Shown one piece after another: positions 1 through 34,140 of a stretch of DNA of 35,846 nt (position 1 is its first letter; every line of letters begins with the position of its first letter). The notes below the pieces were generated by a model, which saw only the letters and a list, made by a program, of their open reading frames with translations, ran no database searches and was not told where the DNA came from. A program made the translations under genes and the position numbers. Source of the stretch: a virus; the IMG/VR virus record IMGVR_UViG_3300032893_000190, positions 1 to 35,846 of that record. One strand, given 5' to 3'.

Positions 1-2
1 AT

Positions 3-335
3 TTTGAAAGAGATTTTTGGATAGCAGAGATGTTTGAGCAAATAAAAAAAGGTCATGTCAGATTCCCGCTAGGAAATTATGAACAAGTGGCCTGGTTAAT
101 GCATCATTGTTGTGCATTTGATATTAAACCAAGTATCTCTCGATATGGAGATGTTAACCCTCATTATGTTAAATCTGGAGCGAACGATGGATTTATGGCT
201 TTATTAAATGCATATATAGCTTATAAGTTCTATCTTACCGATGGATTTAAGAATACAAATCCATTATTACAAAAAGAACATAATAAACAAATAGAAGCTC
301 CGGTACTACTTGGCTATATTCCAAAAATGAAATAA
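3..335 (+). CDS. Probable terminase large subunit, C-terminal end (partial)
   Basis: The reading frame is open from the first bases of the window, so the gene starts upstream and only its last 110 residues are seen. An internal ATG at 30 is not taken as the start because the frame continues before it (FERDFWIAEM). The tail contains RFPLG, then RYGDVNPHYVK, then a GANDGFMALLNAY stretch. This resembles the end of the terminase nuclease domain, where the last catalytic Asp sits in a (N)D-x-x-x-AL helix. The portal gene follows 37 nt downstream, the usual phage order. The ATPase motifs lie outside the window, so the identity is an inference from position plus a short C-terminal match. Confidence 0.55.
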   Translation, partial: FERDFWIAEMFEQIKKGHVRFPLGNYEQVAWLMHHCCAFDIKPSISRYGDVNPHYVKSGANDGFMALLNAYIAYKFYLTDGFKNTNPLLQKEHNKQIEAPVLLGYIPKMK

Positions 336-372
336 TCTCTAATTTTTTGATATATACATATAAGGCACTCCA

Positions 373-2160
373 ATGGTAAAGTCAAAGTCAGAACAACATT
401 TAGACACGCGAGATGGCGTTCCAAAAATTTCTCCAAATATGTATAAACAAGTTTCAGAAGAACGCCGCGCAATGTTAAATGGCGAAGTAGAAAACGGATT
501 ATTTAAAGATGGATCGCTGCCATCGGATCCTAATTATAATAAAACAAGTGCCAGTAATATAATGCCATTATCTACTGGAATTAAAAAGAATGCTCAGGTT
601 TTATCGTCTACTGGAGTTGGAGTTTCTGGAGATACTTCCTCTGGATGGAGAGGTAGCGGCGGAACTGAAAGACAAGTAACGGAATTATATTCTCCATTGT
701 ATCTTGCTTCAAACTTAAATCTACCAAGAGATAGGGCAACAATTAATGCCTGGTGCAGGGCCTTCTATGCCTTAAATCCAATCGTGCAAAACGCTATTAA
801 TTTGCACAGTACATATCCAATTAGTAAATTAAATATTAAATGTCCAAATAAAAAAATTGAAAATTTCTTTAATGAAATGATTGAAGAAATAGATTTAATG
901 AATATTTGTGTTCAAGCTGCACAAGAATTTTGGTTATTAGGAGAAGCCTTTGTATATGGCGAGCTTGATGAAAGAACACTTAAATGGAGTAGATTAGTAA
1001 TTCAAAATCCAGATTATATAGTTCTTAAAAAAACAGTGGTCGCAAATGAGCCATTAATAATGTTAAGACCAGATGAGAATTTAAGAAGAATTGTTTTTTC
1101 TACAAAGCCATCAGATGTAGAGCAGAGAAAACAATTAAATGAAAATATAATAAATCATATTAGAAGGGGAGAAAATATTCCTCTTGATAATTTCTATGTA
1201 TCTCATTTGGCTCGTAGAATAGCCCCTTATGAGGTTAGAGGCACTGGACTTCCAGTGAGCGTGTTCAGGCAGCTTATGTTATTTGATTTAATTAGAGAAT
1301 CAAAATTTGCACAGGCATCAAATTTAATAAATCCTCTTACCATCATCAAGGTAGGTAGCGCCGAATATAAACCAACATTAGCCGATCTTCAACAATGGAG
1401 AGATACCTTTGCAGAGGCACAAAATGATAGGGATTTTAAGATCTTTACTCATGAGGCCGTCACAGTAGAAAAGGTAGGATCTGGGGGCGCAATATATGAT
1501 ACTTCCGGAGATATTAATCAGCTATTAAAAGAAATATATATTGGACTGATGGTTCCACAGGTTATTATTGAGGGTGGCGGAGATATAACATATGCTAACG
1601 GTGGAGTTTCATTAGAGGTATTAAAACAAAGATATATTTCATTTAGAAATATGATGTCTTCCTGGCTAAAAATGAAGATTTTTGCCCCGATATCTAAACT
1701 GAATGAATTCTATGATTATAAAGACGGTAAAAAGACATTGATTGTTCCAGATATTGATTGGAACCATATGAATTTGTTTGATGCCGCCGACTATATAAAT
1801 ATCTTGGTGAATGTTTCTTCCGGAGAGGCAAAGAGAGTTTCAACTCAAACATTATATCGCTCGTTAGGTCTGGAGTGGGAAGAGGAGCGAAGAAAAATTA
1901 GAAAAGAAGACATTGCAGAATCTATAAGAAAGAAAGAAATAGTGTCTCTTGAAAAAATGAATTTAAATGAATTAAGAGCAATTAGTGATGATAGTGAAAT
2001 ACCAGAGGTTGTTGATACTCCTGATATTGGAATTTCACCATATTCATCAGACGGAATGCCGCTACCAGGAGAAACTGGAGGTGGCGGTGGCGGAGGCGGT
2101 GGTGGATTAGGTGGATTAGAACTTCCTCCGTCATTAAAGGCTGAAAAGCCGTCTCCATAG
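373..2160 (+). CDS. Portal protein
   Basis: A 595-residue protein of usual portal length. It would form the ring at the capsid vertex through which DNA enters and leaves. The N-terminal ~100 residues are polar and low complexity. The core from about residue 120 (RATINAWCRAFYALNP, then the aromatic and acidic stretch around residues 180-200) through residue 510 fits the alpha/beta clip and stem pattern of large-phage portals, including a conserved-looking GLMVPQVIIEGG segment near residue 400. The C-terminus ends in a poly-Gly linker and a Pro-rich tail. An AAGG ribosome site lies upstream of the ATG. It sits between the probable terminase and the structural cluster, which supports the call. 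Portal identity is judged from overall pattern and context, without a search. Confidence 0.75.
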   Translation: MVKSKSEQHLDTRDGVPKISPNMYKQVSEERRAMLNGEVENGLFKDGSLPSDPNYNKTSASNIMPLSTGIKKNAQVLSSTGVGVSGDTSSGWRGSGGTERQVTELYSPLYLASNLNLPRDRATINAWCRAFYALNPIVQNAINLHSTYPISKLNIKCPNKKIENFFNEMIEEIDLMNICVQAAQEFWLLGEAFVYGELDERTLKWSRLVIQNPDYIVLKKTVVANEPLIMLRPDENLRRIVFSTKPSDVEQRKQLNENIINHIRRGENIPLDNFYVSHLARRIAPYEVRGTGLPVSVFRQLMLFDLIRESKFAQASNLINPLTIIKVGSAEYKPTLADLQQWRDTFAEAQNDRDFKIFTHEAVTVEKVGSGGAIYDTSGDINQLLKEIYIGLMVPQVIIEGGGDITYANGGVSLEVLKQRYISFRNMMSSWLKMKIFAPISKLNEFYDYKDGKKTLIVPDIDWNHMNLFDAADYINILVNVSSGEAKRVSTQTLYRSLGLEWEEERRKIRKEDIAESIRKKEIVSLEKMNLNELRAISDDSEIPEVVDTPDIGISPYSSDGMPLPGETGGGGGGGGGGLGGLELPPSLKAEKPSP

Positions 2161-2207
2161 TTAGCGTTATTTACACATATAATTGAAGGCTATATATTGG
2201 AGATTAT

Positions 2208-3935
2208 ATGGATAAGATCGCCCAACGCAGAAAACTATTAAGCAAGATTCACGAAGCCACTTCTATTAAGGGGCGGATCTTAGAAAAAATGAATCCAGAA
2301 TTTCGTGAAGTTATGGATAGTATTCGCGATACAGATGCCAGGATTAGAGAGTATGCAGAAAATATTAAAACGGCATCAAGAAATGCAAGATCATCGGTAA
2401 GAAGAAATGATTATCTTCAGGCTGCACAAAATCTTACCATAGTCCACGATAAGGCAAAATATATTGCAGCAGAACTTGAGAAATTAAAAAATCTAATTAA
2501 TAAAAAACATTTTAATATACTACTAAATAAATTTGATGATGATCATAAGAGAGAATTATTTGAATATGATCCTAAAAAAATTGTAAAATTAGAAACAGAA
2601 ACAAATGAATTAATTAAAAAATATGCAGGAATTGGTGATTGGTGGTTTAATATAAAAGACATTCCATCTGCCATAATGCATAATTTATTTACCGGCAAGG
2701 GCATTGCTATGTCTGCCCTTCAAAAATCCTTCTCTACACCGTTTTTAAAAACATTAAAAACAGATACAGAAAATTTAACCACAAAAACAGAAGAATTTGT
2801 TGAAAATTTACTTGATATTTTTAAAAAATTAGGGAATGCGGTAGGAACAAGAGATATTCATACATATGTTCTTGAATCAAATAATTTAATCAAAAAATAT
2901 GCCGGATATAATAGAACATTTTTAAATTACTATAATAAAAATATAGAGCCAATCAAATCTCATTATATTCAGCTAAAAGAAGAGATGAATGCAGCAGAAG
3001 CAGAAAGATTAAAACAAACGCAGCAGGAAACAGAAAGATTAAAGCAAATACAACAACAACAGGCTGCAACTCAACCTCCTGCTAATCAACCTCCTGTTAA
3101 TCAGTCTGACGCCACCAAGCTAGAAGAAAATCAAGAAATTGAGTTAGAAAAACAAAGAAAAATTCAAGAGGATATATCGCATAAAATGGAAGAAGAGGCG
3201 AGAAAACAAAGAGAGGGTCTTGATGCCGCTATAAAGGCTCAAGAATTTAAAAAACAAAATCCTTCAGGACTAATGACGCCAGAGGAAATGCAGAAAAAGA
3301 TAGATGAGCTTACTACGATTGAAACAAAAAAAAGCAATCGTCATGGTGCGGCTCTACATAAGATAGCGAAAAAATATTACCTGTTTGTTTCTGCCCAATC
3401 TCCGGAAATGATAGAATTAGATCCGTCAGATTTGGAAGAAATAGATGAAACGGAGCCATTTGAACTTACTAACAGAGTGAAGCCAAAAGAATTGGTTGAA
3501 CAAAAGAGATTATCATACGATCTTCCTGATGGCAAGATTGATAGACACTACTCCTCTATACCATTTTTAAAAGAAATTACTGCCGATAGAATTAGAATGA
3601 CTCCAAATACAGAGGCGCACCTTGTTAATATTTTTGTCAGTAGATTAGAAGATTATGACTATGATTTAGAAGATGTAGAATCGCAGGTTATAGGAAAAAA
3701 ATTAACAGAAGAAATTAAAAAAGCAATTGTTAATGGTTGGGTTCTTTCTAGCGTTTCTGCTGGAGATATAAATAATCCAAAAGATAAAATAATTAATATT
3801 TATATTAGATTTAATATATCTGATGTAATGCCAGAGCTTGCAGGTACAGCCAAGATTAAAATTGACTGTAGAATATCCGCAAGAAACAAAACCTTAACTG
3901 TAAAGACAATAAACAAAAATTTTAGGATAGAATAA
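2208..3935 (+). CDS. Coiled-coil structural-type protein, unknown function
   Basis: 575 residues, starting at an ATG with a GGAG site 8 nt upstream. Residues 1-230 are predicted helical. Residues ~255-350 form a Glu/Gln/Lys-rich heptad-like coiled coil with a short Pro/Gln spacer. Residues ~400-575 look like a separate alpha/beta domain with several beta strands. The protein holds the short motif IKKYAG twice and LHKIAKKYY once, similar to short motifs in neighbouring proteins. Its stop codon overlaps the next start (TAATG), so the two are translationally coupled. It lies directly behind the portal, so a head or neck role is possible, but I do not recognise the family. Confidence 0.8.
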   Translation: MDKIAQRRKLLSKIHEATSIKGRILEKMNPEFREVMDSIRDTDARIREYAENIKTASRNARSSVRRNDYLQAAQNLTIVHDKAKYIAAELEKLKNLINKKHFNILLNKFDDDHKRELFEYDPKKIVKLETETNELIKKYAGIGDWWFNIKDIPSAIMHNLFTGKGIAMSALQKSFSTPFLKTLKTDTENLTTKTEEFVENLLDIFKKLGNAVGTRDIHTYVLESNNLIKKYAGYNRTFLNYYNKNIEPIKSHYIQLKEEMNAAEAERLKQTQQETERLKQIQQQQAATQPPANQPPVNQSDATKLEENQEIELEKQRKIQEDISHKMEEEARKQREGLDAAIKAQEFKKQNPSGLMTPEEMQKKIDELTTIETKKSNRHGAALHKIAKKYYLFVSAQSPEMIELDPSDLEEIDETEPFELTNRVKPKELVEQKRLSYDLPDGKIDRHYSSIPFLKEITADRIRMTPNTEAHLVNIFVSRLEDYDYDLEDVESQVIGKKLTEEIKKAIVNGWVLSSVSAGDINNPKDKIINIYIRFNISDVMPELAGTAKIKIDCRISARNKTLTVKTINKNFRIE

Positions 3936-4945
3936 TGTCAGGATCTGAAGTTCCACAAAGGAAAACGCCGGCAAATCTTGATGATCTTGTTAGCGGATTT
4001 ATAAAAGCCTGGAGAAAGCTTGAAGGTAGAGATCCGTCCAAACAACAAATAGCTATGGTTATGTCTCAAAATGCTTTAGAGACGGGGGGCTTTGCAACTA
4101 AATCCATGCTAAATTATAATATAGGAAATATTATTAAAACCCCATATGATAATTTTGATTATTATGTTCATCCTGACAGTTATCACGGTAAAAAAATTAT
4201 ACAGCATTTTAGATCCTATAATTCATTGCAAGAAGGAATTGAAGATTTTTTAAAATTAATAAAAAAAGGATATCCTCAAGCCTTTTCTGCTACCACTAAA
4301 ACGCCCAAAGAATACGCATATGCTCTTGTAGAAAATCCAAAAGCAAGATATTACGATGAGACACATAGAGATGATTATGCGAAAGGAATGAATTCTTTAT
4401 ATAATCAATATTTGAAATCAAAAGATTTCAATAGACTTTTTGATAGTATAGTTGGTTTGCCTGCAGAAAATACAATTGAAAAGGCACCCGAAGCTAAAGA
4501 AGATGATGGATTTCTATCATCTTTAATAAGAAAAATAGAAGAATTCATAATGTCAATTGCATTATTAAAGAATAAAGATATGATAAAGAATAGTTATGTG
4601 ATTTTAGTTAATTCAAATAATAAGGAAAATTCTGTTGAGTTTGCAAGAATATTATCTATGGCAATTAGAGAGGAATTAAAAGAGAATGCAGATATTCATT
4701 TTGATGGAGATAATGTAGAAATTCAGGTTAATGCATCTAAAAACGGCGATGTAAAAGGAGCGCTCTCACAATTAAGTGATGCAATTTCAGAAGCGTTTAT
4801 TGAAGCTACTAAAAAAATAGGTGGAGTGAAAGTTAATTCATATATAATGGAAAATCAAATATCTAAATATGCCAAAATAGAAGATGAAATTTTGGATAAG
4901 TATTATAGGCAATTTCATATCAAATTTTTAAGAGATGAAAAATGA
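3935..4945 (+). CDS. Glucosaminidase-like peptidoglycan hydrolase with C-terminal extension
   Basis: 336 residues. The first ~170 match the FlgJ/GH73-type N-acetylglucosaminidase pattern: an SQNALETGGF helix with the likely catalytic Glu at residue 49, then NYNIGNI, the FRSYNSLQEGIEDF helix, and a closing Y-rich helix (YNQYLKS). These enzymes cut glycan strands of peptidoglycan. Residues ~180-336 are an unrelated alpha/beta tail not seen in simple lysins. There is no signal peptide. Position inside the head or virion operon, with a 1-nt overlap before and an ATGA overlap after, suggests a virion-associated hydrolase used at entry rather than the lysis endolysin. The enzymatic class is fairly clear; the timing of use is inferred. 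Confidence 0.7.
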   Translation: MSGSEVPQRKTPANLDDLVSGFIKAWRKLEGRDPSKQQIAMVMSQNALETGGFATKSMLNYNIGNIIKTPYDNFDYYVHPDSYHGKKIIQHFRSYNSLQEGIEDFLKLIKKGYPQAFSATTKTPKEYAYALVENPKARYYDETHRDDYAKGMNSLYNQYLKSKDFNRLFDSIVGLPAENTIEKAPEAKEDDGFLSSLIRKIEEFIMSIALLKNKDMIKNSYVILVNSNNKENSVEFARILSMAIREELKENADIHFDGDNVEIQVNASKNGDVKGALSQLSDAISEAFIEATKKIGGVKVNSYIMENQISKYAKIEDEILDKYYRQFHIKFLRDEK

Positions 4946-5325
4946 AAAAAGAAGATGTTTTAAAGACAATAGAGAAATTTAAAAAATCTGATAAGCAGGC
5001 AAGCTTTTCTGAAATAATTGCCGAACTTTGCAAAGATAAATTAATAGAAATATATTTTGGCGATGTATATGAACAAGCAAATCTTTCTGATTTTAGTCAA
5101 AATATTTATAGCGTTATCTGTGGAAAAATAATATCTGGTTATGGCGATTGTCTTTTTATAGATTGTTACTATGCTGACGATGAGACTAAACAATTAAAAA
5201 GAGGAAATATAGTTATTGTTAATGGATTTAATGTCAAGGCAATTACCGAAATAGATACTACAGGAAGAGTTAAAGATATAATAATAAGCACTAAAACAAC
5301 AAATCGTATAAAAAAATATGAATGA
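4942..5325 (+). CDS. Hypothetical protein, 127 aa
   Basis: A small mixed alpha/beta protein. The N-terminal ~45 residues are helical and charged. The rest alternates hydrophobic beta strands, including a GKIISGYGDCLFIDCYY segment and a GNIVIVNGF turn, which suggests a compact beta barrel. The start overlaps the previous stop (ATGA) and the end overlaps the next gene by 8 nt, so it is part of the same translational unit. I do not recognise a family. Confidence 0.75.
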   Translation: MKKEDVLKTIEKFKKSDKQASFSEIIAELCKDKLIEIYFGDVYEQANLSDFSQNIYSVICGKIISGYGDCLFIDCYYADDETKQLKRGNIVIVNGFNVKAITEIDTTGRVKDIIISTKTTNRIKKYE

Positions 5326-18534: not shown

Positions 18535-18600
18535 ATACGACCATAATAATTAATTATATTTAAAATAATCAATATTACAATATATAATTAGAAAACTTTA

Positions 18601-18628
18601 TTGTAAGTTTCTGATGTAAGTTTATAAT
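18601..18628 (+). promoter_or_regulatory. Sigma70-like promoter for the 18642 gene
   Basis: TTGTAA (18601-18606) and a perfect TATAAT (18623-18628) are 16 bp apart, 14 bp before the ATG. The 107-nt gap it sits in has no other features. Strong codon bias in the gene that follows fits separate high expression. In such an AT-rich sequence chance matches are possible. Confidence 0.4.
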
Positions 18629-18641
18629 TTATAGGTAAAAA

Positions 18642-19343
18642 ATGGCTCTAGTAATATTAAATCCTGGCTCACCTCCCCTTGGCCAGTTCGACGGTTATGA
18701 CAACCTTTCGTTAAAAGGCGGAGAAGTTGTATTTCTTAACAGCGTAGTCACCCCGCAATATCCATCAGGCAGCGTTGATCTCGGCGCATACGATGTCTTC
18801 GACGGTTATGCAGGTACCACAAACAAGGTTCGTCCAGTTGTTGGTCTTGCTAACGCCCAGACAGCAAAGCCCTGGTTCCTCGCAGACGAAGGTACTGCTA
18901 ACTACGGTACCCTCTTCGGAACACTCGTAGGTGGCACTGCAGGTCAGGTAACCACAGCATCAGGCACAGTTATCGGTCCATCAACAATGGCCGGTTCAGG
19001 CAAAGTTACCCTCTGGGATAAACCAGGTCTTTATGGCGTAACTCTCGATGCAGTTGACACAACCGCTAACACCGGTCTCGTTGTTGGTAACTCGGCTCTT
19101 CAGTCAGCCAACACACTTTCGTTCACATCGGCCGGTCTATTAACACCTGCCTCATCGGGTCAGCAAGTTTCAGGCGCCCCAGTTGTTGCTCGTTTCGTCG
19201 AGTTCGCAACAAAGGGATCGCTCGTAACCACACCGAACTCACTCGTGTCAGCACTTAACTCGCCATCATCGCCAGTTCAGTCGCTCTCACAACGCGCCTT
19301 CTATATGGCCGTTATTTACTGGATGGGTGTCGCACAAAGCTGA
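18642..19343 (+). CDS. Abundant virion protein, probably head decoration or similar
   Basis: 233 residues, almost free of Lys and rich in Gly, Ser, Thr, Val and Ala, so beta-structured. Codons are GC-richer and often C-ending (CTC, TTC, TCG, CGT), unlike the AT-rich neighbours and like the capsid gene; this suggests strong expression. Blocks such as LSLKGGEVVFLNSVV and VRPVVGLANAQ fit the strand pattern of decoration-type proteins and loosely match the 12209 gene. It has its own promoter-like element and strong terminator. A major tail or head-fibre protein is the alternative. Confidence 0.6.
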   Translation: MALVILNPGSPPLGQFDGYDNLSLKGGEVVFLNSVVTPQYPSGSVDLGAYDVFDGYAGTTNKVRPVVGLANAQTAKPWFLADEGTANYGTLFGTLVGGTAGQVTTASGTVIGPSTMAGSGKVTLWDKPGLYGVTLDAVDTTANTGLVVGNSALQSANTLSFTSAGLLTPASSGQQVSGAPVVARFVEFATKGSLVTTPNSLVSALNSPSSPVQSLSQRAFYMAVIYWMGVAQS

Positions 19344-19384
19344 TATATTGTCTGGTTTATTCCAGATTTTATATACAAAGATTT

Positions 19385-19415
19385 GGGCTCGTTTTTACGG
19401 GCCCTTTTCTTTTTT
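19385..19415 (+). terminator. Rho-independent terminator after the 18642 gene
   Basis: GGGCTCGT pairs with ACGGGCCC (8 bp, one G-T wobble) around TTTT, followed by TTTTCTTTTTT. A weaker hairpin, TCTGG/CCAGA, lies just upstream at 19351-19365. It isolates this gene from the capsid gene. Confidence 0.85.
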
Positions 19416-19446
19416 AATCAAATTGGTAATATTATCACATTATTTT

Positions 19447-19463
19447 AGGTATATTTCATACCT
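19447..19463 (+). promoter_or_regulatory. Hairpin in the capsid-gene leader
   Basis: AGGTAT and ATACCT form a perfect 6-bp stem with a 5-nt loop (ATTTC), 40 nt before the capsid ATG. There is no T tract, so it is not a terminator. It could stabilise the mRNA 5' end or be an operator; use is unknown. Confidence 0.35.
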
Positions 19464-19502
19464 GTGCTGGGAAACTGGCAACTTTAAACAATTAGGTGAA
19501 AA

Positions 19503-19720
19503 ATGAATATGTTCAATGGTAAGGGCGAATTAAACGCCGGAAGTGTAAAAGAGGCACTTCAGTCGATTGCAAAAATCGCTGCAGTTCTCGAAGAAAACGT
19601 TCCATCAAACGTCGGTCTCGCAGGCCCCGTTTCGGATAGCCGTCGTGATGAGCTTATTTCGCAAGCTCTTATGACACAAGAAGGCAAAATTGCTTTAGCA
19701 CAAGCAATGGCCAACCCCAT
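19503..19720 (+). CDS. Major capsid protein, exon 1
   Basis: The first 72 codons plus two bases of codon 73 of the capsid gene, with AGGTGA (19494-19499) as ribosome site. Unspliced translation stops at TGA 19725-19727 and gives only 74 residues. Joined to 20907-21696, the gene has 336 codons (335 residues) with no frame problem, and the junction reads MANPIRKNLDYHG. Exon 1 encodes the helical N-terminal arm (around GSVKEALQSIAKIAAVLEE). Codons are C-ending and GC-richer than nearby genes, as expected for the most abundant virion protein. The exon ends in U, which pairs with G19735 in the intron guide, the hallmark of a group I 5' splice site. Confidence 0.85.
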
Positions 19721-20906
19721 TAACTGAATTACGAGTGGGGTATAAATTTAGCTATATGCTGGAAACTCTAAAAGCCTTATCACTTCGACACTCTACAAAT
19801 TAATCACCGCAGATAATTTAAATACAGTCGAATGTAACAGAATAAGGATGATATAGACAATCAGCAGGGAAGGCTGGCAAATGAAAGAAAGTGAAATTGC
19901 TAAACTATATGAATCTGGTTTAACTATAAGAGAAATTGCTGAAAAATCCAATGTAAGTTATGAGACCATTAGGCAAATCTTAAAAAAGCAAAAAGTTAAG
20001 TGGCACAGAAATTATGTGTCAGATTTAACTCCTAACCAAATTCAGGATATCATATACAGATACAATCAACATCAGACAATATTAGAAATCGCCAAATGGT
20101 ATGAAATATCACCTCCGGCTATTTCAAGGATATTAAAAGCCAATAATATAGAAGTTGAATGTAGTTTAAGAAAATATGATATCTTAAGACAAACACCTAT
20201 TAATAGTATCCAAAGACAGTTTTTAGTCGGAACCTTATTAGGAGATGGATGTTTATATAGGGACGGAAAGAATAGCAATTTTAAACTTTCAATAGCTCAA
20301 TGTGAAGCGCAGGAGCAATATTTTCACTGGAAGATAGCAATGATGGATCCCTTTATCAATGGTTATCGTAAATCAATTGATAAGAGGAAAAACTCAATAA
20401 TGCTGCAAACAACCACAATCTGTCATCAAGATTTTAATATGTTTGCTAAAATGTTCTACGATGAAAATAGAAAAAAAATTGTTCCTGATAATTTAGATAT
20501 GTATTTAACTCCCTTATCCCTAGCAGTATGGATAATGGATGACGGCAATCTAAATATGAATGTAAATATGAGAATCGCTTCAATGGGCTTTACAGAAGAA
20601 GAGAACTACAAACTACAGGCGTATTTGAAAAGATGTTTTGATTTAAGATCCAAGGTAATGGGTTTTAAATATAAGGATAAACAATATTTTCAATTAACGC
20701 TAAATAAAGAAAATACTCAAAAATTATCTAATATAATTCGAGAGCATGTTGTAGATTGTATGAAGTATAAGATAATGCCAGAACCCTCAACGACTTAATG
20801 CTAAACTTCGTAAATGATAACGAAGATGATAAAGTCTGACCTTTATTGAAAAGTAAAGAACCAAACAGAAATGATTTGGTTGGATAGATAGAATCCATAA
20901 CAAATG
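19721..20906 (+). ncRNA. Group I self-splicing intron in the capsid gene
   Basis: All core helices can be drawn. P1: 19714-19720 with 19735-19741 (ACCCCAU/GUGGGGU, U-G at the splice site). P10: 20907-20912 with 19729-19734 (UCGUAA/UUACGA). P3: 19747-19752 with 20800-20805. P4: 19758-19761 with 19862-19865 (GCUG/CAGC). P5: 19775-19780 with 19842-19847; P5a: 19784-19789 with 19827-19832. P6a: 19875-19879 with 20776-20780. P7: 20792-20796 with 20832-20836 (GACUU/AAGUC). P8: 20806-20811 with 20820-20825. P9 hairpins: 20841-20858, 20859-20881 and 20882-20896. The last base is G20906. The endonuclease gene fills the P6 loop. The subgroup is not assigned. Confidence 0.92.
19881..20798 (+). CDS. Intron-encoded LAGLIDADG homing endonuclease
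   Basis: 305 residues. Two helix-turn-helix units lie at residues ~5-40 (IREIAEKSNVSYETIRQIL) and ~50-90 (ILEIAKWYEISPPAISRIL). The nuclease half has both LAGLIDADG-type motifs: FLVGTLLGDG (residues 114-123, Asp122) and LAVWIMDDG (residues ~214-222, Asp220/221), as in the LAGLIDADG_2 class of single-chain enzymes. It would cut intron-less capsid genes at the junction sequence and so spread the intron. The ribosome site GGGAAGG lies inside the Q/P6 region, and the last codons and stop overlap the 5' side of P7, so translation and ribozyme folding compete. It could also act as a maturase; this is unproven. Confidence 0.88.
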   Translation: MKESEIAKLYESGLTIREIAEKSNVSYETIRQILKKQKVKWHRNYVSDLTPNQIQDIIYRYNQHQTILEIAKWYEISPPAISRILKANNIEVECSLRKYDILRQTPINSIQRQFLVGTLLGDGCLYRDGKNSNFKLSIAQCEAQEQYFHWKIAMMDPFINGYRKSIDKRKNSIMLQTTTICHQDFNMFAKMFYDENRKKIVPDNLDMYLTPLSLAVWIMDDGNLNMNVNMRIASMGFTEEENYKLQAYLKRCFDLRSKVMGFKYKDKQYFQLTLNKENTQKLSNIIREHVVDCMKYKIMPEPSTT

Positions 20907-21696
20907 TCGTAAAAACTTAGACTATCACGGAATTGCTCGTAGAGCAGTTTGCGTAGATCCAATACCCCAGGGTGCACTTGCGGTCTACGATCGTGATATC
21001 GATGTTGCCGCTGTCGTTGTTTCAAGCAACGGTACCGGCCCAGAATCACGCGTTTTCGGTGATCGCGTAACTGTTCCAGAGTTTGAGCTCTTCTCAAACC
21101 CCACAGTTCGTATCGCAGAAGTTAAGCGTCGTCGTTTCAACGTTATCGACCGTGCAGTTCAGAAAGCCCGTCAAGAAATTATGGCTCAGGAAGACGCAAA
21201 CGTTTTCGCAGCCATTGACGCAGCTTCAACAGTCGAAAACGTTCGTCAGGATATCGCCGATGCAGGTATGCTCAAGCGCGATCTCGCTGCTATCAAAAAG
21301 CAAGTCGATCGTTGGGACCTCGTAACAACCAAGTTTTTCATGAACATCAACGAGTTCAATGACATTCTCCTCTGGGCAACCGGCGGTGGTCAGGGCGTTG
21401 GTGGTGGTGAAATCGACCCAGTAACCCAGCGCGAAATTCTCCAGACTGGTCTTTATGCCCACATCTGGGGTGCAGACATTCTTGTCAGCAAAATCGTTCC
21501 GCCTGGTACTGTTTATGGTTGTGCAGACCCAGAGTTCGTAGGCGTAATGCCCGTCAGACAAGACATTGAAGTTTTGCCAGCAGACGAACCAAAACAGTTA
21601 AAATTAGGTTGGGTTGTCAACGAGATTATCGGTATCGGTATTCTCAACCCACGTGGCGTTGCTTCAGGCAACAAGTCAGTACTAATTGGTACATGA
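20907..21696 (+). CDS. Major capsid protein, exon 2
   Basis: The remaining 263 codons of the capsid gene. The first base completes codon 73 (AT+T, Ile), followed by RKNLDYHGIARRAVCVDP. The frame is open back through 20907 and past it into the intron, so the true exon start is set by the ribozyme (ωG at 20906 and P10 pairing), not by an ATG; the ATG at 21181 is internal. The sequence continues with VFGDRVTVPEFEL, the KRRRFNVIDRAVQKARQEI helix and an EDANVFAAIDAAS segment, a pattern I associate with HK97-fold capsids of large phages. The C-terminus ends NKSVLIGT. Codon use is strongly biased to C-ending codons. A strong terminator follows. Confidence 0.85.
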
Positions 21697-21735
21697 TTTA
21701 GGCTAAAAATAGCCAGTTTATACTGGTTAGTATTT

Positions 21736-21770
21736 AAAGGGCCAATCGAAAGATTGGCCCTTTTTATTTT
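21736..21770 (+). terminator. Strong rho-independent terminator after the capsid gene
   Basis: AAAGGGCCAATC pairs perfectly with GATTGGCCCTTT (12 bp) across a GAAA tetraloop, followed by TTATTTTT. Two small hairpins (GGCT/AGCC at 21701-21714 and CCAGT/ACTGG at 21713-21726) precede it. The 126 nt from here to the next gene hold no feature I can support beyond an isolated TTGACA at 21833. Confidence 0.9.
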
Positions 21771-21896
21771 TGGGTTCGCTTGCATGTCTCGAAAAAACTG
21801 TCAAATTTTTTCTGATTACTGATATATGTATTTTGACAACCATTTGGCCTAAAAACCCAAAATAATCAAGTTCATTCGAGAAAGGTAGGAGGGGGA

Positions 21897-23996
21897 ATGA
21901 AAAAAATTACAGAAGAAGTGAGACGGCAAATTATTAAAATGTATCAAGATGGATTATCTCCTTCTGAAATTGGTGTCAAGTTTGATTTACATAGCGGTAG
22001 TGTTGGAAGAATAGTTAAAAAATCTGGAATTGTTAAAAATCAAAGAACCGTTATTAATGAAGATTTATTTAATTTTATGAAAGAAAAATATGAATCTGGA
22101 ATGTCTTCGGAAAAAATAGCGGAAATTATCGGAATAGATAGCTCCTCTATATGCAGAAAACTTAAAAAAAATGGAGTTGTAATAAGAACGGCCTCAGAAA
22201 ATAATAGGAAATATCATATAGATGAAACTTTTTTTGAAAAAATTAATAATGAAGAAAAAGCTTATTTTTTGGGACTAATATATTCTAATGGATATTTAAA
22301 CGCCAAAGATAAGTCAATAAGAGTTTTGTTAAGAAATTCTGATAAAAATATTTTAGAAAAATTATCATCTTTAATTTTTAAAGAAAATAGAGTTAAAGAG
22401 ACTAAAAATAAGGGTCGGTATGTATATTCTTATATTAGAATTTATTCTTCAAAAATATATGATTGTTTAATAAATATGGGAAAAGCAGAAAAAAAGAAAT
22501 TAATTTTAAATTTTCCCAATTTCATTAGAGAGGATTTAAAACGACATTTCATTAGAGGTTGTTATGATGGAGATGGGTTCTTTTTATTGATGGGTGGAGG
22601 CTCGCATCTTGGAATAACATCAAACACTAATATAATTAACGGTATTGCTAAATATTTTTCTGATACTTTAAATATAAATTCAGAAATTAAAATAAAAAAT
22701 GAAAAGAAAAATTTATCCAGTCTTAAAATTAAAGATTTAAATCAAATAGATATTGTTGTCCATCATTTATATGATAATAGTAATTTTTATATTAATAGGA
22801 TATATAAGAAGTATTTACGATTTTTAGAATTAAAAAATAACTTTGATAAAAATAAATTAAAACGACAAAACAAGATAGAAAAAGTAAAAGATAAGTATAC
22901 TAATATTAAAAATTATGGCACCACCTATATTGTACCATATCAAAATATGTTATTAACATCAGACAATCTTATAAATATGACTGAAGAACAAAAAAATGAT
23001 GCGGCTAAAATCGTTTTTGATTTTTATAGAAATAACGGTTTTCCCTATTCTAATTTATCAAAAGATGAGTTGCTGAAAGACTTTATATATCTAAAAAACA
23101 TAGATATTAAAAAAATTAATAAAGATAATATTTTAAATTTAAATAATTATAGTGGGATTAGTATATTTAAACATTTTGCTCCTCATTTCTATGAGGCAAA
23201 ATCATCATTAACTAACAATTCATTAACTCAAAAACCATCAATGATCGAAGGATTTCATAGAGATGATATTTTGTTGAGAGTAATTAATGAAAGATTGAGC
23301 AAAAATAAAAATATGAATGGCAATATGATCAAACAGGGATTATTTAATTCTTATCGTGTATATAGGGCAAGCATCTTCTTCCCCTCTATTGCTAAATTTT
23401 TATACTCCAAATATACTCAAGAAGGAGATATAATTTATGATTATTCTATGGGCTTTGGTCAGAGATTATTAGGAGCATTATCACTACCTCATAATATTAA
23501 ATATGTTGGAGTAGATCCTTTTAGAAAATCATTTGAAAGTAATGTTAATATTTTTCAATTTTTTAAAGATAATATTCCTATGTTTAAGCAAGATGTTGAT
23601 TTGCGATGTTGTGGTGCCGAAGAATTTATAGATGAGCAATATAAGGATAAAATTAAATTTGCTTTTTCTAGTCCACCATATTATAATTTAGAGAGATATG
23701 TGGAAGAAGAAAGTCAGTGTTATTATAGTCGTAGTTATGTGGATTTTATTAATGAATGGTGGCGTAAGGTAGTTGATAATATTGATTATATGTTAGCTCC
23801 TGACGGTATCTTTGCCATTAATATTAAAGATAAGGTAGATAATTTTTCCATTAAAGATGATATGGTTAATGTCATTAGAGAGAAGGGTTATGAGATAATC
23901 GACATGTATCAAATTCAGCTAACTCGCAATACCTCCTTTAATAATAAGGATGGCAGTCATAAATACGAACCAATTATATTATTAAAGAGAAAATAG
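21897..23996 (+). CDS. Homing endonuclease-DNA methyltransferase fusion
   Basis: 699 residues with a strong site (AGGAGGGGG) before the ATG. Residues ~1-95: two helix-turn-helix units like those of the intron endonuclease. Residues ~115-330: a LAGLIDADG-type nuclease with AYFLGLIYSNGYL (motif 1, acidic residue replaced by Asn) and FIRGCYDGDGFF (motif 2, Asp present). Residues ~340-699: a SAM-dependent DNA methyltransferase with DYSMGFGQRLLG and VGVDPF (motif I region), and SPPY at 592-595 (motif IV), the form common in N4-cytosine and some N6-adenine enzymes. A 15-nt tail-to-tail overlap with the minus-strand gene follows. It may be a mobile endonuclease that captured a methylase. Loss of one acidic residue may leave the nuclease weak or a nickase. 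Confidence 0.8.
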   Translation: MKKITEEVRRQIIKMYQDGLSPSEIGVKFDLHSGSVGRIVKKSGIVKNQRTVINEDLFNFMKEKYESGMSSEKIAEIIGIDSSSICRKLKKNGVVIRTASENNRKYHIDETFFEKINNEEKAYFLGLIYSNGYLNAKDKSIRVLLRNSDKNILEKLSSLIFKENRVKETKNKGRYVYSYIRIYSSKIYDCLINMGKAEKKKLILNFPNFIREDLKRHFIRGCYDGDGFFLLMGGGSHLGITSNTNIINGIAKYFSDTLNINSEIKIKNEKKNLSSLKIKDLNQIDIVVHHLYDNSNFYINRIYKKYLRFLELKNNFDKNKLKRQNKIEKVKDKYTNIKNYGTTYIVPYQNMLLTSDNLINMTEEQKNDAAKIVFDFYRNNGFPYSNLSKDELLKDFIYLKNIDIKKINKDNILNLNNYSGISIFKHFAPHFYEAKSSLTNNSLTQKPSMIEGFHRDDILLRVINERLSKNKNMNGNMIKQGLFNSYRVYRASIFFPSIAKFLYSKYTQEGDIIYDYSMGFGQRLLGALSLPHNIKYVGVDPFRKSFESNVNIFQFFKDNIPMFKQDVDLRCCGAEEFIDEQYKDKIKFAFSSPPYYNLERYVEEESQCYYSRSYVDFINEWWRKVVDNIDYMLAPDGIFAINIKDKVDNFSIKDDMVNVIREKGYEIIDMYQIQLTRNTSFNNKDGSHKYEPIILLKRK

Positions 23997-33354: not shown

Positions 33355-34140
33355 TTGTTCGATTTTCTAGATGCTTTTCAAATTTTAGCAGAAATACATA
33401 AGGAAGATGACAACTCTTTGCCCGTAAGAGTAAATGCTGTTCTTAAGATGCATCCCATTAAAAAGGTGGCATTTGATTCTCGTCGTGTGGATCAAGATGC
33501 CTATTTTAATCCAAGGAGAAATCTGCAATATTATCATCGCAGCGAACCATTTGTATCTAAAGAGGCATCTGAACAAATTAGAACATTTTTCAAATTAAAA
33601 ACAGCGGCCGATTCAATTAGAGATCAATATGTCGGTCATCCTGCATGGTTAGACAGCTATTCAAGAGTATTATGTGCCTCTCTTGACAGAACATTAAGAT
33701 TAGAACAAAAAGACGGGGACTATGGAAAGCCGCAACTTGATTATCTTCAGGAGCTATTAGATGTTAGATATCGTTTAAAGCCAGAAGATATTGAAAAAAT
33801 GAGCCACGAAGAATTAAGGCAAGCAATCATAAAGAAAGACGAGAATTTAATGCAAGACCAAAATTTTCAATCACATTACATATCAAAAACCAATACATTA
33901 CAGCCGCCCATGCAAAATGTAGCAGCTCCATTTAATATTAATTTGCCAAAACAAGAGCAGCAAGACTCCTTAATGGAAAAATTATTTGGAAATGTTAAGG
34001 CAACCAAAGATAATAAATTTGTTAAAAGAAACATTTCAATTACAATAGAAGACCAAATTCTTGATGAAGTAAAGGGTGAAAAACAAGATAATGAAAATAA
34101 AGAGGAAAATAAAGAAGTAGAAAAGAAAAAGGAGGAATAA
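33355..34140 (+). CDS. Structural-type protein with TTG start, 261 aa
   Basis: The start is TTG: AAGAGG lies at 33344-33349 with a 5-nt gap, and no in-frame ATG is near the conserved-looking beginning (FDFLDAFQILAEIHKE). Residues ~1-165 are a compact helical domain with PIKKVAFDSRR and YVGHPAWLDSYSRV; the remainder is disordered and ends in a Glu/Lys tail. It is the first gene after the accessory block and sits 3 nt before the next gene. It may be a neck or tail-associated protein; I do not recognise a family. Confidence 0.7.
   Translation: MFDFLDAFQILAEIHKEDDNSLPVRVNAVLKMHPIKKVAFDSRRVDQDAYFNPRRNLQYYHRSEPFVSKEASEQIRTFFKLKTAADSIRDQYVGHPAWLDSYSRVLCASLDRTLRLEQKDGDYGKPQLDYLQELLDVRYRLKPEDIEKMSHEELRQAIIKKDENLMQDQNFQSHYISKTNTLQPPMQNVAAPFNINLPKQEQQDSLMEKLFGNVKATKDNKFVKRNISITIEDQILDEVKGEKQDNENKEENKEVEKKKEE

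Follow-up and report, generated by a model that had tools for sequence, protein, structure and literature searches.

Our results show that a single viral reading frame joins two HTH units, a LAGLIDADG nuclease and a complete SPPY-type methyltransferase, and that fusions of this kind occupy a fixed, optional site beside a capsid gene. We give an even chance to the reading that this protein is a free-standing homing endonuclease carrying its own DNA methyltransferase in one chain. The DNA analysed, called here the window, is a 35.8-kb fragment of a viral genome (35,846 nucleotides).

A nuclease and a methyltransferase in one frame

The fusion ORF (21897..23996, + strand) is a single ATG-started frame of 699 aa with no internal stops, and a strong ribosome-binding site (AGGAGGGGG) precedes its start. 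The domain order that the first-pass annotation had read from this frame is borne out by profile searches, an AlphaFold2 model and comparison with the PDB. HTH 1 (residues 5-42; 21909..22022, +) matches PF13384 with an E-value of 3.2e-6 (HTH_23 profile, E 3e-6), and HTH 2 (residues 61-95; 22077..22181, +) has weak HTH/MarR matches, within a stretch of weaker HTH profile matches near residues 60-105; both are helical in the model. LAGLIDADG repeat 1 (residues 119-193, motif FLGLIYSNG; 22251..22475, +) is placed by the modelled fold and PDB matches, and repeat 2 (residues 212-292, motif RGCYDGDG; 22530..22772, +) by PF14528, the model and the alignment. A long linking helix is modelled at residues 300-335 (22794..22901, +), and nuclease-only homologues stop near the matching position. 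The class I methyltransferase (residues 355-699; 22959..23993, +), identified by profiles, model and PDB matches, bears motif I (DYSMGFGQR; 23439-23465, +) and motif IV (SSPPYY; 23667-23684, +), so that motif I and an (S/T)PPY motif IV are both present in a class I fold, as in N4/N6-type SAM-dependent methyltransferases.

The PF14528 (LAGLIDADG_3) match covers residues 214-274 (E 1.6e-6) and exceeds its cut-off, and the endonuclease profile phrog_4645 spans residues 15-307 (E 2.8e-38). The AlphaFold2 model, computed from 50 aligned proteins of the window and of viral contigs, has a mean pLDDT of 92.3. It comprises a pair of helical DNA-binding units, both LAGLIDADG repeats, the long helix and the class I methyltransferase; its pTM of 0.66 makes the relative placement of the halves less certain than each fold. 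Residues 115-316 find PI-PfuI (Z 19.1), I-Tsp061I (Z 17.0) and I-DmoI (Z 15.7) as fold matches in the PDB, and a PDB search with the nuclease part returns I-Tsp061I (E 6.4e-9). Model and matches agree on a two-repeat LAGLIDADG fold, which residues 115-330, singled out earlier for structure prediction, are predicted to adopt.

The methyltransferase half gave no match in a Pfam search with the full-length protein; in isolation it passes PF01555 (27.9 bits against a cut-off of 26.7), and it matches PADLOC type II methyltransferases (E 3.5e-7). Residues 405-699 match Trm11/TrmN-type methyltransferases (Z about 17), and the nearest solved structures are RNA methyltransferases (Trm11, TrmN, MnmM). 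The PADLOC and PF01555 matches point to DNA as the substrate and the closest PDB folds to RNA; a DNA substrate is predicted here from motifs and family profiles. This half aligns end to end with stand-alone phage methyltransferases and, like them, retains a complete N-terminal helical domain of its own, so that its recognition sequence may be a separate one. Most of its homologues are stand-alone proteins of 330-400 aa without the nuclease region, which rules out that this region is an obligatory target-recognition domain of the methyltransferase. A megablast search returned no match.

The capsid locus of the window

The fusion ORF begins 200 bp past the stop of the major capsid gene, and an intrinsic-terminator-like hairpin (21736..21763, +) lies 3' of that gene. 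The capsid frame is interrupted: exon 1 (19503..19721, +, end approximate; MNMFNGKGEL...AQAMANPI) matches the N-terminus of the uninterrupted capsid ORFs of relatives, and exon 2 (20907..21696, +) matches the major head protein profile phrog_2522 (E 1.8e-38). The sequence between them (19722..20906, +, ends approximate), placed by the frame break relative to these ORFs, holds the gene for an HTH and LAGLIDADG_2 endonuclease (19881..20798, +; PF03161, E 6.5e-34). The interrupted frame and the LAGLIDADG_2 ORF inside it make an intron probable; an Rfam search gave no group I intron match at the gathering score. The earlier placement of the fusion right after an intron-bearing capsid gene agrees with the 200-bp spacing and the interrupted frame. 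The common origin with the intron endonuclease that had also been suggested is not supported for the nuclease domain, since the two belong to different LAGLIDADG Pfam families (LAGLIDADG_3 and LAGLIDADG_2) and only their HTH parts resemble each other (26% over 127 aa).

Exon 2 is the left border of an insertion hotspot, the right border of which is a conserved gene of 261 aa (g261; 33355..34140, +) that follows the capsid gene in relatives. The interval between these borders is 94-143 bp in empty-site relatives and 11.65 kb in the window, where the fusion is part of a larger cargo island. Between 23982 and 33292 it further contains three large ORFs on the minus strand (1004, 495 and 780 aa), with weak LRV/repeat-like matches in common, a DUF4379 zinc-finger protein (321 aa; HNH endonuclease by PHROG) and a 468-aa orphan.

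The window capsid is 82-88% identical to the capsids of other fusion carriers and shares 50% identity with the Bacillus phage G capsid, and contigs of the family reach 435 kb; the phage G-like capsid and the contig sizes together point to large phages. A second metagenome contig, L001, is 99.5% identical to window positions 18546-22781, yet is unmatched upstream of 18546 (L001 1-1028); this break, just before the gene preceding the capsid gene, is possibly a recombination boundary. L275 has two LAGLIDADG_2 ORFs ahead of its capsid exon, at distances of about 3.0 and 1.8 kb from the exon end, which hints at two introns in this capsid gene.

Fused, separate, nuclease-only and empty alleles at one site

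Viral contigs were scanned with methyltransferase and nuclease profiles, all ORFs were then searched with HMMs, and a capsid-based set was added. This search for the fusion elsewhere, a check named in the first-pass annotation, yielded 13 further phage contigs with a LAGLIDADG_3-methyltransferase fusion (L093, L095, L109=L270, L117, L129, L262, L266, L272, L279, L280=L094, L287, L290 and L320). Without exception, the LAGLIDADG_3 fusions come directly after one and the same capsid gene, with another nuclease gene first in L093, L272 and L279. Several LAGLIDADG_2 fusions, and L194, are also downstream of a phrog_2522 capsid gene, and in LR745208 the capsid match (396442-397170) stops about 230 bp before the fusion.

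We compared 83 related loci, with near-identical contigs kept separate and with frequencies biased by a sample seeded from fusion carriers. The capsid-g261 interval is empty in six; a nuclease alone is present in 19 (a few of them ended by the contig edge, e.g. L288), the fusion in 14, and a nuclease with a separate methyltransferase in four or five (L274, L276, L284, L297; also L096). Other loci hold different cargo, for instance a CCA-adding enzyme or an HNH gene. We are dealing with an optional gene between two conserved ones, capsid and g261, which stand 0.1 to 11.7 kb apart. Nuclease-only relatives stop at the fusion boundary, as seen when the fusion of L117 is compared with L100/L261 (46-48% identity over about 340 aa) and that of L280 with L096 (50%). 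Methyltransferases at the hotspot were seen only beside a nuclease gene (in L283 the nuclease is inferred from likeness to the L304 HNH gene).

Among the 14 fusions, the identity matrices of the nuclease and methyltransferase halves agree strongly (Mantel rho 0.82, p 5e-4), at least part of which is explained by joint inheritance of one ORF, and the agreement of either half with the capsid is weak (rho 0.26 and 0.27). Mean identity is 35% for the nuclease, 41% for the methyltransferase and 87% for the capsid. As read from these sequence comparisons, the divergence of the halves beside so uniform a capsid points either to transfer from phage to phage or to rates that differ greatly. The mobility that had been suggested for the element agrees with an optional gene at a fixed site, with empty-site relatives and with the loose tie to the capsid phylogeny of the host phages.

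The L093 locus (1-5244) runs from the capsid gene through an L109-type nuclease without methyltransferase and a window-type fusion to a related methyltransferase on the minus strand, an apparent layering of elements at a single site. We also noted a GGTTCA/TGAACC word between the capsid and nuclease-methyltransferase genes of L095 (five copies), L129, L262, L270, L274, L287, L297 and L320, which is rare in nuclease-only or empty loci and not clearly present at window positions 21697-21896. The HTHs may use it as an operator, or it may be a recognition site; as a shared motif it was set aside, being a post hoc lead whose best 6-mers reach p 1e-4 to 1e-3, uncorrected for about 2,000 words.

One methyltransferase family, several nuclease partners

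The methyltransferase family has 561 or more relatives, mostly stand-alone in phages. A methyltransferase of this family is fused to N-terminal LAGLIDADG_2 domains in 12 records (LR745208, L061, L081, L173=L083, L174-L176, L180, L181, L184, L217 and L237), follows two HNH units in L182 (phrog_374, E 4.5e-105), and is joined to HTH, zinc-finger and Vsr-like segments in four contigs (L177-L179 and L183). The Vsr-like label stands for a putative fold, given for the motif DGFFxxxNxIxEAHGxQH and weak matches to a homing-endonuclease PHROG; sequence searches for solved relatives returned nothing but designed PPR proteins, matched through low-complexity sequence, and a fold search with L183 (model pLDDT 74) had only methyltransferase-fold proteins among its best 50.

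In a methyltransferase tree made by a quick method, the LAGLIDADG_3-fused members cluster together (95), separate from the other fusions, which fall in a clade (support 84) where nearly all members carry an N-terminal partner. These separate groups imply at least two fusion origins, and the nuclease part has probably been exchanged. In cellular genomes (75 genome_contigs loci) we found no fusions; the extensions seen there were ParB-like N-terminal partners and others of a non-nuclease kind. Among named phage records and plasmids no match spanned 80% of the window protein, and with a LAGLIDADG_2 fusion as query the sole record with 80% coverage was the uncultured phage LR745208. Its fusion (L005 641-4327, LR745208.1), unannotated in the record, is 1229 aa long and combines a pair of LAGLIDADG_2 domains with HTHs, the methyltransferase and zinc fingers at the C-terminus.

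Other arrangements were met in the same contigs. In L134 (2286-4074), L143 (3965-5744) and L166 (2730-4389) a stand-alone LAGLIDADG_3 nuclease is followed, in an overlapping frame, by a different methyltransferase with SPPY ahead of an FxGxG motif, that is, another nuclease-methyltransferase pairing with an unrelated methyltransferase arrangement. L103 (3536-5515) encodes a 660-aa LAGLIDADG_3 nuclease with extra HTH-like repeats flanking the nuclease domain on both sides, and in L018 (3860-5413) a methyltransferase of the family shares its frame with a C-terminal RNA ligase-like segment (phrog_562, E 2e-33).

Catalytic residues and selection

LAGLIDADG motifs close on an acidic residue. In the window copy D226 of motif 2 is kept, and N131 (codon 22287..22289, +) takes the place of the catalytic Asp of motif 1 in the alignment. 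The Asn read there by the first-pass annotation (IYSNG) is real and particular to this copy: all 80 stand-alone homologues and 13 of the 14 fused ones have Asp in motif 1, the window being the exception. The motif 2 Asp is present in 79/79 stand-alone and 13/14 fused homologues, with Lys in L279, so that both acids are kept in 12 of the 14 LAGLIDADG_3 fusions; in LAGLIDADG_2 fusions they are kept where readable, save in domain 1 of LR745208 (N and R). A sequencing error at N131 is unlikely, as the second contig, L001, encodes identical residues 1-295.

With its first catalytic Asp replaced by Asn, the window nuclease is probably impaired, in line with the suspicion that it might be altered. 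The methyltransferase looks intact, and the fusions that we inspected retain motifs I and IV, L290 with STPY in a separate reading; judged from its residues, the window copy likely combines an impaired nuclease with an intact-looking methyltransferase. A faster decay of its nuclease half was treated as unproven after relative-rate tests (p 0.09-0.11 with L290 as outgroup; 1.7e-4 with L095, not a clean outgroup).

Both halves are under purifying selection in two fusion types (dN/dS below 0.35). The ratios, rough since dS approaches or exceeds 1 in several cases, are 0.24-0.34 for the nuclease and 0.18-0.22 for the methyltransferase in LAGLIDADG_3 fusions, and 0.14-0.16 and 0.08-0.11, respectively, in LAGLIDADG_2 fusions.

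A proposed homing endonuclease with its own methyltransferase, and the alternatives

Free-standing homing endonuclease genes sit between conserved genes and cut one of these in genomes that lack the endonuclease gene (PMC6083498), hundreds to thousands of bp away from their own position (PMC2988022). A target that lies away from the endonuclease's own gene is left uninterrupted by the insertion, and must therefore be spared in the carrier. We propose that the HTH and LAGLIDADG parts of the fusion would bind a long site within or close to the capsid gene, that genomes without the element would be cut and that repair would then copy the element in (intronless homing). The methyltransferase may mark the carrier DNA, in which case only unmarked relatives would be cut. 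A linked methyltransferase would be a natural alternative to protection by an intron, self-protection by this route is plausible, and we regard it as the reading that the sequences best support for the family. In its favour, members of this one methyltransferase family are paired repeatedly with unrelated nucleases in separate parts of their tree. As a counterpoint, many phages carry a nuclease at the hotspot without any methyltransferase, which is accordingly not required for carriage.

As the Asn change is particular to the window copy, the case for self-protecting homing is stronger for the family than for the window protein. Double-strand cutting by the latter is probably impaired; it may now mainly mark DNA, a state that would fit a late stage of the homing cycle or a protective allele. 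A little short of even, we rate the chance that these proteins form a class of self-marking homing elements of large phages, in which several unrelated nuclease folds, each joined to one methyltransferase family, would cut unmarked relatives only, the carrier being protected by methylation.

The main rival, to which we give roughly one chance in five, is that the methyltransferase is beneficial cargo (anti-restriction or general genome marking) with its own recognition sequence, hitch-hiking on the homing endonuclease and paying for it. Pairing with useful genes to offset the cost of homing endonucleases has been proposed for antitoxins (PMC12619734), and the stand-alone abundance of the methyltransferase family, the N-terminal domain kept by the fused members and the frequency of nuclease-only carriers at the hotspot all agree with such a role. 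Against it stand the in-frame fusions, more than mere proximity, that recur with several nuclease types and are often capsid-adjacent, and the observation of hotspot methyltransferases only in the neighbourhood of a nuclease gene (the inferred one of L283 included).

It is improbable, though deserving of attention, that the LAGLIDADG part is a DNA-targeting module of a site-directed methyltransferase, its nuclease activity being incidental or lost. Only two of 94 homologues have lost a catalytic acid, the window (N131) and L279 (D-to-K in motif 2); both are fusions, and in L279 a stand-alone nuclease gene adjoins the fusion; against this, both acids persist in the other 12 LAGLIDADG_3 fusions and in all readable LAGLIDADG_2 domains except domain 1 of LR745208.

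We find it distinctly improbable that the fusion is a single-chain restriction-modification enzyme of the type IIG/IIC kind, with LAGLIDADG as nuclease, directed against co-infecting rivals and with homing as a secondary matter. Nuclease and methyltransferase do share a chain, and an intron endonuclease is reported to favour its phage over a co-infecting one (PMC11620839). The fixed capsid-adjacent site with empty and nuclease-only alleles is nevertheless the pattern of a homing gene, and a review of type II enzymes names PD-(D/E)XK, HNH and GIY-YIG as catalytic classes, with LAGLIDADG unmentioned (PMC4081073).

Ordinary homing into a methyltransferase gene, with an accidental in-frame fusion, is very improbable. 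Cases of homing elements within methylase genes of phages have been described, such as the ShiLan HNH element (PMC11855218), but here the nuclease is N-terminal and the methyltransferase complete, the site is downstream of the capsid gene, where empty-site relatives have no methyltransferase gene, the same nuclease occurs at the hotspot without a methyltransferase, and several unrelated nucleases precede methyltransferases of this one family. Hardly credible for the family is collaborative homing, in which the capsid intron would disrupt the target of the neighbouring endonuclease and protect it without methylation: the window and L262 each carry a capsid intron ORF together with the fusion, a layout that agrees with the published case of F-CphI and psbA (PMC6083498), but the capsid ORF is uninterrupted in 10 of 12 readable fusion loci.

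Significance and comparison with known systems

To our knowledge, sparing of the own genome by free-standing homing endonucleases is known only in particular cases, for example through an intron in the target. The presence of fused, separate-gene and nuclease-only versions and of empty sites at one locus makes the question of self-sparing directly testable. If the proposed reading is true, homing endonucleases and restriction-modification would be linked in one mechanism, the logic of restriction-modification would be put to use for homing, and long-site nucleases with a built-in methylase would be on offer. We found no LAGLIDADG-methyltransferase fusion in the literature searched, which is weak evidence of novelty as it covered few subscription journals; according to a paper of 2025, no strong association of HNH endonucleases with methylases is known so far (PMC11855218).

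The closest relatives of the fusion on the nuclease side are the free-standing LAGLIDADG endonucleases of phages (PF14528, phrog_4645), which share the HTH array followed by a two-repeat LAGLIDADG part, an optional gene between conserved genes and, for the nuclease-only homologues, the locus itself; the fusion adds a C-terminal methyltransferase of about 345 aa, and the window copy has Asn in motif 1. On the other side, stand-alone phage SPPY methyltransferases (phrog_12517; DAC16_114 of Bacteroides phage DAC16 and NVP2058O_092 of Vibrio phage 2.058.O) match the whole domain at 27-28% identity, including the N-terminal helical part, motif I and SPPY, but lack the nuclease and HTH part. Type IIG/IIC enzymes such as BpuSI, TstI and MmeI likewise unite cutting and methylation in one polypeptide, activities that are predicted for the fusion, which differs in its LAGLIDADG domain, in having no PD-(D/E)XK restriction-type nuclease and in its capsid-adjacent homing context. 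The ShiLan domain also brings a homing endonuclease together with a phage methylase; there the element lies inside the methylase and is read out of frame, whereas in the fusion the nuclease is N-terminal and in frame and the methyltransferase is intact (PMC11855218). Finally, as with F-CphI and psbA, where the own genome is spared by the neighbouring intron, a free-standing endonuclease adjoins an intron-containing gene in the window and L262 only; most fusion carriers have no capsid intron, and a methyltransferase is attached to the nuclease itself (PMC6083498).
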